This document shows positions 5,733 through 9,329 of a stretch of DNA of 64,000 bases, one piece after another. The position numbers and the translations under genes are program-made. The stretch covers positions 248,001 through 312,000 of the forward strand of contig JAJFGO010000021.1 of NCBI GenBank assembly GCA_021776095.1. The letters are read 5' to 3'. Each line of letters starts with the position of its first letter. Positions within the stretch are counted from its first letter, which is position 1. Origin of the DNA: Kiloniellaceae bacterium. Lineage in GTDB: Bacteria; Pseudomonadota; Alphaproteobacteria; Kiloniellales; J153. Under the pieces are notes generated by a model. The model saw nothing but the letters and a program-made list of their open reading frames with translations, was not told where the DNA came from and did no database searches.

Positions 5733-6284
5733 CTAGGGCCCGGCGGTCAATTGCCGGCGCAGGACCGAGGTGAAGAAATCCGTCTCCTCAGCACTGTCGG
5801 TGCCATGCCGCAAGAGGAAATCGGCGATGTCGCGGCCGGAATACCGCCCGAAAAGCCTGCCGCCGCGCAAGATCAACGTCTTCTGGGCCAGGGCCTCCGC
5901 ACTGGCATGGCAGATGCCGCAGCGGACCTCGAAACGGCCTCGGCCCTGGGCGATGCGCCGCAGGGCACCATAAATCGCGTCGATTTCGCTCTCCTCGGGC
6001 GCCCCGAAATGCCCGCGCATGAACGCACGCAAATCCAGATCGTCGGAGGTAACCAACGCGCCGGTGGCGGTCAACGACAGCCGTTCGCGCACCAAGGGGC
6101 CCGCCCGGTCATGACAGGCACCGCACTTGGCTTGAAACAGGCCGGGGCGCGGCGGCGCTTCGGCGCCGTAGGCCTCCCGGCGCTCCATGGTTTGCGCGCC
6201 CGCCGCGGTCACGGCCTGCCACACACCGCCCAACGCAAGGGCGAGAACGGCGGCGAATAGAATAGCCCGGTCAATCCCGGTCAT
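5733..6284 (-). CDS. Membrane-anchored or periplasmic diheme cytochrome c-like protein
   Basis: A 183-residue protein starting with an N-terminal hydrophobic segment (AILFAAVLALALGGVW, about residues 7-22) that is either a signal peptide or an uncleaved anchor. Two covalent heme sites follow: KCGACH (Cys54, Cys57, His58) and RCGICH (Cys122, Cys125, His126). Candidate distal ligands include several His and Met residues between the two sites. It looks like an electron carrier in the periplasm; the partner is unknown. ATG 6284 was chosen because it puts the hydrophobic segment at the N-terminus, although the frame is open to 6455. It is divergent from the sortase-substrate gene and upstream of aspC on the same strand. 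Confidence 0.82.
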   Translation of the reverse strand: MTGIDRAILFAAVLALALGGVWQAVTAAGAQTMERREAYGAEAPPRPGLFQAKCGACHDRAGPLVRERLSLTATGALVTSDDLDLRAFMRGHFGAPEESEIDAIYGALRRIAQGRGRFEVRCGICHASAEALAQKTLILRGGRLFGRYSGRDIADFLLRHGTDSAEETDFFTSVLRRQLTAGP

Positions 6285-6481: not shown

Positions 6482-8740
6482 ATGCCGCATGTAACCGACA
6501 ACCTTACCTTTACCGGTGTGTTCCCACCGCGCACCGTGGCCTTTTGCCGAAGTGCCGTGGCGACCGTTTTGGCCACCCTGTGCTTGGCGGTTTTATTGCT
6601 TTTGCTCGGCGGCCTCTTTGTCTTGGCGCCGACCCGCATATCCTTCGCGCAAACGCCGCAAAACACGGCCGAGGCGGTGCCGGCGGGGCTTTTCTTCCAT
6701 GCCGACAGGGAGGAGGCCGCCTTGGAGGCGCCGTTGCTCAAGTCCGAGGTGCAAATCGCGGTCAACGGCACGGTCGCACGGGTCAAGCTGCGCCAGCACT
6801 TCCTCAACCCAAGCACCGCCTGGGTCGAGGGTGTCTATGTCTTCCCGCTGCCGGAACGCTCGGCGGTCGACCGGCTTATCCTGTGGGTCGGCGAAAAGCG
6901 CATCAAGGGGCAGATCCTGGAGCGCGCGCAAGCCCGCAAGGCCTACGATACCGCCGCCGCGAAGGGCCAGCGCGCAAGCCTGCTGTCGTCCGAGCGGCCC
7001 AATGTCTTCACCACCTCGGTCGCTAACATCGGGCCGGGCCAAGAGGTCGTGGTCGAGATCGAGTATCAGGACGCGGCGCGCTTCGACGACGGCCTCTATT
7101 CGCTGCGCTTTCCCATGGTGGTCGCGCCACGCTACAGCCCGCCGGGGTCGCTCGAGATGGCGCAAGACGGGGCCACGGCCCTTGCGCCGGTCAGGGGCAC
7201 ACCCGGGCGAGGCCGCGACCTCTTCGGGCCGGTGCGCCATCCCGACGACCCGGTGCCGAGCCCGCTCAGCCTGAGCGTCGCCCTGGACGCGGGCGTCCCG
7301 CTGGCCGGGATTGAGAGCCCCTATCATGCGGTCAATATCCTGGAGACCGACGCCCGCCGCCGCCTGGTCACCCTGGCCGACGGGCCGGTCCCGGCCAACC
7401 GGGACTTCGTGTTGGAATGGCGGCCGGCCCTGGGCGGCGCGCCGCTGGCCAGCGTGTTCGCCCAGGAGGTCGCGGGCGACAGCTTTCTGCTGGTTACTCT
7501 CTTGCCGCCCGCTGGGGACCGCGAGGCAGTGGTCCGCCCACCGCGCGACGTGATCCTGGTGATCGACACCTCCGGCTCAATGCACGGCGCCTCTATGGCG
7601 CAGGCCAAGACCGCCGTGTTGCGCGCGCTCGCCGGGCTGCGCCCGGAGGACCGTTTCAATGTGATCCGCTTCGCCAGCGGCACCAGCAGCCTGTTCGGCG
7701 ACGTGCGGGCTGCCTCGGCTCAGAACCTGCGCCGGGGCGCGCGCTTCGTCGAGACCCTGAAGGCCGAGGGCGGCACCCAAATGATGCCGGCCTTGATCAA
7801 GGCCCTGGCCAAGCCCGCACAGGTCGGCCGTCTGCGCCAGGTGCTGTTTCTGACCGACGGCGCGGTTAGCAACGAGGCCGAACTGTTCGAAATCATCGCC
7901 GGTCTGCTGGGCGAAACGCGGCTTTTCACCGTCGGCATCGGATCCGCGCCGAACAGCTATTTCATGCGCAAGGCCTCGGAACTGGGCCACGGCAGCTTCA
8001 CCCATATCGGCAAGGTCGAAGAGGTTGCGGCGCGCATGGACAGCCTGCTGAGCAAGTTGGAGCAAGCCGCCCTGACCGGCCTCACCACCGCCTGGCCCGT
8101 CTGGGCGGAAACCGGGCCCGAGATCTATCCGTCGCCCCTGCCCGACCTTTACGACGGCGAGCCGGTCAGCTTCACCGCCCGCGTGCCGGGCATGGGGCTG
8201 GCCGCCCTAAAGGGCGCGCTCACCCTCGGCGGTCAACGCGGCGACCAAGGATGGTCCACGCCTTTGGCGCTGGACTCCCTGCACCCGGCCGAAGGGGTCG
8301 CGGCGATCTGGGCCCGGGCAAAGATCGCGCAGATCGAGGACGGTGTCTTCGCCGGGATCGATGAGGAAACCCGGCGCGCCGCGGCCCTCAAGGTCGCCCT
8401 GGACCACCGTCTGGTCACCAAATACAGCAGCCTAGTGGCGATCGACCCAGACCCGGTGCGCCCGGACGATGCCGCACTGCATAGCCAGGACATACCGCGC
8501 GCCTTGCCCGCCGGGTGGGACTTCGATCATGTCTTCGGCGCACAAGTCAAAGAGATGAAGCTGCGCGCCCTGCCGGCGCCGCTCTTGAAGACGGCGCCTT
8601 TCGATAGCGCGCCGATCAGCTTGCCGCAGACCGCCACCCCGGCGGCGCTGCACGCCCTGGCGGCGCTCGCCCTGGTGTGCGGCGGCCTTTACGTCCTGCT
8701 GCTGAGCCGCCGTCTGGGCCGGGCCCATGGCCGCGGCTAA
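6482..8740 (+). CDS. VIT/VWA-domain sortase substrate (marine proteobacterial sortase target protein)
   Basis: A 752-residue exported protein. Order of parts: N-terminal hydrophobic segment (about 24-50); VIT domain (about 75-205); von Willebrand A domain beginning at DVILVIDTSGSM with an intact metal-ion-dependent adhesion site DTSGS (362-366); a beta-rich linker; and at the C-terminus a sorting signal made of LPQTATP (714-720), a hydrophobic span (about 721-741) and a basic tail with RR. The overlap with a sortase gene directly downstream makes it the dedicated substrate. This substrate/sortase pairing is an established family in proteobacteria, and its cell-surface role is not understood. 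VIT/VWA proteins of animals (inter-alpha-trypsin inhibitor) bind matrix components, so adhesion or matrix binding is a plausible inference. Confidence 0.93.
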   Translation: MPHVTDNLTFTGVFPPRTVAFCRSAVATVLATLCLAVLLLLLGGLFVLAPTRISFAQTPQNTAEAVPAGLFFHADREEAALEAPLLKSEVQIAVNGTVARVKLRQHFLNPSTAWVEGVYVFPLPERSAVDRLILWVGEKRIKGQILERAQARKAYDTAAAKGQRASLLSSERPNVFTTSVANIGPGQEVVVEIEYQDAARFDDGLYSLRFPMVVAPRYSPPGSLEMAQDGATALAPVRGTPGRGRDLFGPVRHPDDPVPSPLSLSVALDAGVPLAGIESPYHAVNILETDARRRLVTLADGPVPANRDFVLEWRPALGGAPLASVFAQEVAGDSFLLVTLLPPAGDREAVVRPPRDVILVIDTSGSMHGASMAQAKTAVLRALAGLRPEDRFNVIRFASGTSSLFGDVRAASAQNLRRGARFVETLKAEGGTQMMPALIKALAKPAQVGRLRQVLFLTDGAVSNEAELFEIIAGLLGETRLFTVGIGSAPNSYFMRKASELGHGSFTHIGKVEEVAARMDSLLSKLEQAALTGLTTAWPVWAETGPEIYPSPLPDLYDGEPVSFTARVPGMGLAALKGALTLGGQRGDQGWSTPLALDSLHPAEGVAAIWARAKIAQIEDGVFAGIDEETRRAAALKVALDHRLVTKYSSLVAIDPDPVRPDDAALHSQDIPRALPAGWDFDHVFGAQVKEMKLRALPAPLLKTAPFDSAPISLPQTATPAALHALAALALVCGGLYVLLLSRRLGRAHGRG

Positions 8741-9329
8741 GCATTGGACCCTGGCCGGTGCCGGGGCCCTGCTGATCGGGGTCGGGCTCTGGCAAGCTGG
8801 CGAATCCGCCTATATCGAGGCCAAGGCCTGGCTCGCCCAGGGCCTGCTGTCCGAGGCCTGGGCCGCGACCCTGGACGGAGAGCGCCAAGTTAAGCCTTGG
8901 CCCTGGGCCGACACCTGGCCGGTCGCGCGCCTCCAGGTGCCAGCCTTGGGAATCGAACGGATCGTCCTGGCCGGGGCCAGCGGGCGCACCCTCGCCTTCG
9001 GCCCGGCCCACCTGGACGGCACCGCCCAGGCGGGCGCGCCGGGGCACGCGGTTCTAACCGGGCATCGCGATACCCACTTTCGCTTCCTGCGCGACCTGCG
9101 GCCGGGTATGGAGCTGCGCGTCCAGGGGTCCGACGGCGCCTGGCACAGTTACCGAACCGGGGGCAGCACGGTGCTGGACGCACGCCGGGCCCGTTTGAGC
9201 CAGGATCCGGGCCAGCGCGACCTGACCCTGGTCACCTGCTATCCCTTCGATGCCTTGGTGCCGGGCGGGCCCCTGCGCTATGCGGTTTCCGCGCGGGCCG
9301 AAGGCGTGCCGGCCACCGCCGCTCAATAG
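8727..9329 (+). CDS. Class GN sortase
   Basis: A cysteine transpeptidase of 200 residues that should cleave the LPQTA-type signal of the upstream gene product at the inner membrane. An N-terminal membrane anchor (about residues 7-24) precedes the sortase barrel. The catalytic triad is complete: His113 in TGHRDTHF, Cys171 in TLVTCYPF and Arg184 in GGPLRYAV. The gene overlaps its substrate gene by 14 bases, so the two are translationally coupled. At its 3' end it overlaps the convergent ggt gene by 7 bases. Sortases are rare in Gram-negative bacteria; class GN is the proteobacterial type. The nucleophile that accepts the substrate in a cell without a Gram-positive wall is unknown. Confidence 0.94.
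   Translation: MAAAKHWTLAGAGALLIGVGLWQAGESAYIEAKAWLAQGLLSEAWAATLDGERQVKPWPWADTWPVARLQVPALGIERIVLAGASGRTLAFGPAHLDGTAQAGAPGHAVLTGHRDTHFRFLRDLRPGMELRVQGSDGAWHSYRTGGSTVLDARRARLSQDPGQRDLTLVTCYPFDALVPGGPLRYAVSARAEGVPATAAQ

Follow-up and report, generated by a model that had tools for sequence, protein, structure and literature searches.

The window analysed here, i.e. a 64,000 nt stretch of contig JAJFGO010000021.1 (positions 248,001 to 312,000, assembly GCA_021776095.1) from a Kiloniellaceae bacterium, encodes a class GN sortase next to the putative protein target of this enzyme. Sortases are best known from Gram-positive bacteria. Both genes lie on the forward strand, and their open reading frames (ORFs) were found where the initial annotation had placed them, including the overlap of 14 bases (8727-8740). 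In window coordinates, the features of the pair are as follows:

6482..8740, + strand: sortase target protein (TIGR03788, marine_srt_targ), 752 aa, ATG start (ORF read and profile score)
6527..6616, + strand: N-terminal hydrophobic helix, residues 16-45, a probable signal peptide (helix in the structure model)
6740..7066, + strand: VIT domain, residues 87-195 (PF08487, 2.6e-33)
7547..7996, + strand: VWA domain, residues 356-505, with metal site D362 S364 S366 T432 D459 (PF13768, 1.2e-19)
8621..8641, + strand: sorting motif LPQTATP, residues 714-720 (tail sequence; A718 and T719 nearly invariant)
8642..8737, + strand: C-terminal membrane helix (721-744) and basic tail (tail sequence; helix in the structure model)
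8727..9329, + strand: class GN sortase (TIGR03784), 200 aa, ATG start (ORF read and profile score)
9063..9065, + strand: catalytic His113, in register in 81/81 aligned sortases
9237..9239, + strand: catalytic Cys171, in register in 80/81 aligned sortases
9276..9278, + strand: catalytic Arg184, in register in 81/81 aligned sortases

Both proteins score above the curated cut-offs of their families, i.e. 679.7 bits against 551.65 for the target and 213.2 bits against 158.25 for the sortase, which bears out the proposal that a class GN sortase is paired here with its dedicated target. Each is the sole match of its kind in its own genome at E<=0.001, and the target gene adjoins the sortase gene. 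The C-terminus of the target, SLPQTATPAALHALAALALVCGGLYVLLLSRRLGRAHGRG, with the motif beginning at residue 714, shows the order of motif, helix and basic tail seen in TIGR03788 targets, and the LPQTATP, hydrophobic span and basic tail described initially are all present. By analogy with LPxTG and LPxTA sortases, the cut is expected between T717 and A718. At the other end of the protein, a possible signal-peptidase site, SFA/QT, was read by eye.

The three catalytic residues named in the initial annotation are conserved across the aligned sortases (n=81, the window's own sequence counted in), and the VWA metal site is indeed intact, its residues being invariant among the aligned targets (D362, S364 and S366 in 76/76 each, T432 and D459 in 75/75 each). 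Taken by itself, this site may hint at a role in adhesion. According to its structure model (predicted local distance difference test score, pLDDT, 80.2), the target has an inter-alpha-inhibitor heavy-chain fold: the model matches heavy chain 1 (6fpy; Z 26.1, 512 residues, 4.6 A), in a tie with the heavy chain 4 VWA domain, and sequence matches include PARP4 (1.9e-32), ITIH4 (1.2e-20) and 6fpy (8.9e-11). The bacterial protein shares the order of VIT, VWA and C-terminal domains with ITIH1/ITIH4 and differs in carrying a sortase tail. In animals, the C-termini of these heavy chains are esterified to glycosaminoglycans.

The sortase model (pLDDT 92.9) contains an N-terminal helix, residues 2-49, that is probably a membrane anchor; its fold matches come from sortase classes A, C, D, E and F. 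Its top match is the class D chain 4d70 (Z 18.6, 143 residues, 2.0 A), with class C and E chains within 1 Z unit. Class D sortases occur in Gram-positive bacteria; they share an LPxTA-type motif with our enzyme, judging by model name, provide the (tied) best fold match and are the next-best NCBIfam models, but the scores fall well below the cut-offs, both for the class (NF033746, 64.5 vs 165 bits) and for the LPxTATN-specific SrtD (NF058671, 69.9 vs 140 bits).

Relatives of the pair were collected by a scan of named genomes, from which the best 80 of 552 confirmed loci were compared; the nearest named relatives among these belong to the Kiloniellales. In the comparison of neighbourhoods suggested in the initial annotation, the target lies in the same stretch as the sortase in 77/80 loci. 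Two of the loci without a target (L012 and L064) end at a contig edge, and the third (L046) is unexplained: this Nitrospira locus has a GN sortase and no recognisable target in its stretch, which contains 200 Ns. In all 78 fetched loci that have a GN sortase, as well as in the window, this enzyme lies downstream of the target on the same strand. A census of 397 Pseudomonadota genomes (sortase at E<=1e-20, target above its cut-off) found the sortase in 42 (37 above cut-off) and the target in 42, and these were the same genomes (hypergeometric 9e-58, with kinship ignored). The pairing of sortase with target is near-exclusive and one-to-one. As for further substrates, DNA coding for LPxTAT matched 24 times in the window's own genome, against 40 times for a reversed-pattern control; all 24 matches were read in frame, and only for that in the window do a hydrophobic span and then a basic tail precede the stop. 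A second LPxTAT substrate was therefore not found in this genome, Gly-type or other motif letters not having been searched for. A restriction of GN sortases to halotolerant proteobacteria, as given in PMC10581121, was rejected, since Nitrospirota records and one Rokubacteriota record are among the best 80 relatives (titles of metagenome-assembled genomes).

The same protein family is found beside enzymes other than the GN sortase. In six of the 397 genomes, the target falls short of the cut-off, at 404-435 bits, and a GN sortase is absent at E<=1e-20; next to the target, each of the six carries an exosortase gene. Two order-level samples, with the target at E<=1e-60 in 10/220 and 50/219 genomes, extended the collection, and after removal of 13 repeats 95 VIT/VWA loci were left, the window among them. 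GN sortases stand beside the target in 79 of these, exosortases in 12 and rhombosortases in three; the one locus without an enzyme (L203) is ended by a contig edge. The exosortases comprise six of type XrtT (610-688 bits against a cut-off of 250) and six XrtQ-like ones (five above the cut-off of 270, L178 below it at 207.4), while the three rhombosortases score 94.8-107.1 bits (cut-off 84). The tails differ with the enzyme. Pro-Glu-Pro stands ahead of the helix in 11/11 exosortase targets with a visible end (L183 being incomplete), and the tail is Gly/Ser-rich in 3/3 rhombosortase targets. A loose script motif, P-x-[T/G/S], is present in 76/78 fetched GN targets; it was placed wrongly in L164, and variants seen by eye are L161 (AQTAT) and L220 (LPQAST). 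The GN tails of L158 and L199 contain the letters PEP as well, but away from where the helix starts. Rhombosortase is an intramembrane serine protease unrelated to sortase; its GlyGly-CTERM substrates likewise end in motif, helix and basic tail.

A tree inferred from the VIT-VWA core resolves every enzyme group as one block (support: GN sortase 99, starred; exosortase 83; rhombosortase 100, starred), with two changes of enzyme. This tree was built by a quick method with Shimodaira-Hasegawa-like approximate likelihood ratio test (SH-aLRT) supports only, keeping 87/166 rows, with GN rows thinned to <62% identity and L183 excluded. Repeated swapping of enzymes is unsupported, since each group forms a single block. 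Within the target tree, the window groups with seven other alphaproteobacterial rows (99, starred); in the sortase tree, it joins two gammaproteobacterial rows on long branches to form a trio (95, starred), yet the rows closest to it by path there are alphaproteobacterial. Long branches are the likely cause of this conflict.

The three-way pattern is not new, since Haft described it in 2011 (PMC3237569): bacterial homologues of the vault/VWA/inter-alpha-inhibitor kind bear GlyGly-CTERM, PEP-CTERM or LPXTG tails, and the LPXTG-tailed homologues, the sole LPXTG examples in their genomes, have a dedicated Gram-negative sortase, TIGR03784, adjacent. Protein family and tail types are the same here. 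Our analysis adds the typing of the exosortases as XrtT and XrtQ, the count of adjacency in 95 loci and the placement on a tree. The initial annotation had seen the pairing in the window; it had missed that one family makes use of three unrelated enzymes, a pattern that was thus largely published.

All three kinds of enzyme occur in the window's own genome, which encodes, besides the GN sortase, an exosortase A (G000:C96:26236-26985, 312 bits, cut-off 208; L170) and a rhombosortase (G000:C63:5920-6375, 106.8 bits, cut-off 84; L225), unrelated C-terminal sorting enzymes. Elsewhere, XrtT loci (L123, L179-L182) consist of the exosortase, the VIT/VWA target and then a CreB/CreC-related regulator and kinase; the latter two follow the target in 5/6 XrtT loci, the sixth being incomplete. 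Two-component genes accompany sortase and exosortase lineages alike, and they come from different families.

Within the sorting motif of the first set, Ala occupies position 5 in 70/74 rows and Thr position 6 in 68/74, the script having misplaced the motif in two rows (L069 and L081). At position 4, the expected scissile residue, 155 sortase-substrate pairs show Thr 128 times, Gly 24 times, Ser twice and Ala once; the labels of L069, L071, L074, L078, L081 and of the whole second set were assigned by eye from the tails. The expectation that close homologues keep an LPxTA motif stands in part: LPQTATP is retained in L002, L003 and L004, but the motif reads LPRGATP in L008 and LPQGATP in L067. 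Since these last two, which are among the nearer relatives, are of the Gly type, the motif is better written as LPx[T/G]AT, and judging from the tails the recognised core looks like [T/G]AT. A coupling of sortase position 111 with motif position 4 was considered, L032 with its interrupted target being excluded from the pairs. This was the top column in 77 pairs and the fifth in 155, and Gly stands at position 111 in 12/24 Gly-type pairs against 4/131 others, but the coupling was dropped with two independent pairs on supported branches (sign test p = 1).

The full proteobacterial dedicated sortase system also comprises partner genes, namely a histidine kinase, the response regulator TIGR03787 and PdsO. 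With TIGR03784 and TIGR03788 the locus shares the curated scores, the adjacency, the tail motif and the single found substrate, whereas neither the histidine kinase TIGR03785 (best 160.6 vs 612.2 bits) nor PdsO, TIGR03789 (best 61.5 vs 152.2 bits), is above its cut-off anywhere in the genome. The kinase (E<=1e-100) is present in 30 of the 397 genomes, above cut-off in 19: it accompanies 19/19 sortase genomes outside the window's class and 0/23 inside it, our own genome counted. In eleven genomes (e.g. G151, G224 and G266), neither a GN sortase (at E<=1e-20) nor a target (at E<=1e-100) accompanies the kinase, which may serve other functions there or be a relic. In the best 80 loci, kinase, regulator or both lie in cis in 0/17 alphaproteobacterial and 36/63 other loci, and in 15/80 the gene immediately upstream of the target is of the OmpA family, all of these counts being depressed by contig ends. 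Because of the genome-wide and in-cis counts, we conclude that the window's lineage runs the pair without kinase, regulator or OmpA-family partners. The locus is a standard, intact member of the described system, without the usual sensor kinase.

Two neighbouring genes were rejected as partners. A cytochrome gene with two CxxCH motifs (5733-6284, - strand) diverges from the target gene; its likely start, picked by eye, is the Met at 6284 and not 6455, which puts about 197 bp, and not 26, between it and the target. No homologue (E<=0.01, ORFs >=80 aa) was found in the best 80 loci or in 94 fetched loci, many of which end at contig edges. The link raised in the initial annotation is thus unsupported, and the cytochrome, not being conserved alongside the pair, was set aside. 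An aminotransferase gene recurs in 9 of the best 80 loci; we treat it as synteny, because it is always on the opposite strand and its family is metabolic.

How might the pair work? Sortase chemistry, together with the anatomy of the locus, is the basis for a scheme of export, cleavage and transfer to an amine. The target would be exported, its C-terminal helix keeping it in the inner membrane, whereupon the membrane-anchored GN sortase would attack LPQT/ATP through Cys171 and the helix would be discarded. The acyl end at Thr717 would then pass to an envelope lipid amine, for which the head group of phosphatidylethanolamine, ethanolamine, is the most likely candidate. The product would be a lipid-anchored protein of heavy-chain fold whose intact metal-dependent site could serve in binding. 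The choice of acceptor follows an analogy: if three enzymes serve one protein family, it is simplest to assume an acceptor that all of them can use, and a lipid amine is ranked first because of findings on ethanolamine lipids for rhombosortase and archaeosortase, the latter sharing a superfamily with exosortase. The rhombosortase-processed VesB of Vibrio cholerae carries ethanolamine or glycerophosphoethanolamine on its C-terminal Gly, one intact mass fitting phosphatidylethanolamine (PMC6219818), and maturation of archaeosortase substrates involves PssA and PssD homologues, with an archaetidylethanolamine anchor proposed (PMC7157517). We give a dedicated C-terminal processing pair with a lipid amine acceptor about an even chance, and phosphatidylethanolamine as that acceptor somewhat less.

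Several points weigh against this scheme. Gly at the expected scissile Thr, in 24/155 substrates, is odd for the assumed cut site. The acceptor step is argued across unrelated enzymes, and the intact lipid is a proposal in both PMC6219818 and PMC7157517. The thresholds of 1e-100 and 1e-60 may hide VIT/VWA proteins without a sorting enzyme, and strict orthology is uncertain for the rhombosortase group, whose branch has a length of 2.0. The open-licence literature searched yielded no experiment on a GN sortase. Lastly, the OmpA-family genes upstream in 15 of the best 80 loci suit peptidoglycan equally well. Were the same cleavage followed, as happens in Gram-positive bacteria, by transfer to lipid II or a peptidoglycan peptide stem, the protein would end up peptidoglycan-bound in the periplasm, in line with the reattachment of proteins to the cell wall by class A sortases (PMC3237569). 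Among the OmpA-family upstream genes, two were scanned: that of L045 is above the pdsO cut-off (153.7 vs 152.2), and that of L068 is below it (48.3), its best model being Pal-like. We rank this explanation second and consider it rather unlikely for the window, considering that an OmpA-family gene, by two profiles, is present in 0/17 alphaproteobacterial loci among the best 80, that PdsO above cut-off is absent from the genome, and that exosortase and rhombosortase serve the same family, the rhombosortase product being of the ethanolamine type (PMC6219818).

Sortases usually transpeptidate, and plain release of a protein needs no such enzyme, which makes it unlikely that the sortase is a protease only, with water resolving the intermediate and the protein freed into the periplasm or secreted onward. 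Release could be achieved by all three enzyme classes and would suit the 0/17 alphaproteobacterial loci of the best 80 with a kinase, regulator or OmpA partner in cis, and we place it third. The heavy-chain fold across 512 residues and the homology to ITIH4 and PARP4 recall the attachment of inter-alpha-inhibitor heavy chains to glycosaminoglycans, and PEP-CTERM proteins are described as exopolysaccharide-associated (PMC1569441). A target joined by its C-terminus to a surface polysaccharide is nevertheless improbable and comes fourth, since by eye no glycan-synthesis family appeared among 14 recurrent neighbour clusters, the remaining clusters not being identified. Pilin-style polymerisation of the substrate, suggested by the class C sortases among the fold matches, is highly improbable: across 76 aligned targets, no column is Lys in >=95% and only K525 attains 80% (66/75), and just one substrate was found.

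The initial annotation held that neither the acceptor nor the role of the system is established, and neither is given in the open-licence literature searched, where the acceptor of a Gram-negative sortase found no answer. PMC10581121 (2023) states the role of class GN sortases as unknown, and a transcriptome table in PMC6637203 lists a sortase target of Ensifer adhaerens as a homologue of SMc01580 (Sinorhizobium meliloti 1021). Searches of this literature for XrtQ/XrtT and for sortase with 'VIT domain' returned nothing relevant, a weak negative since the wording of Haft 2011 differs. It is tempting to speculate, with less than an even chance of being right, that GN sortases are lipid-conjugating enzymes and that three unrelated superfamilies were recruited for one ethanolamine-lipid-anchored protein with a metal site in the Gram-negative envelope. 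Because a single substrate is paired with a single enzyme from a neighbouring gene, and other enzymes take its place in nature, the locus offers a clean test case in which the acceptor question can be tested. A lipid product, if true, would give the sortase family a lipidating branch and tie the three C-terminal sorting systems together.

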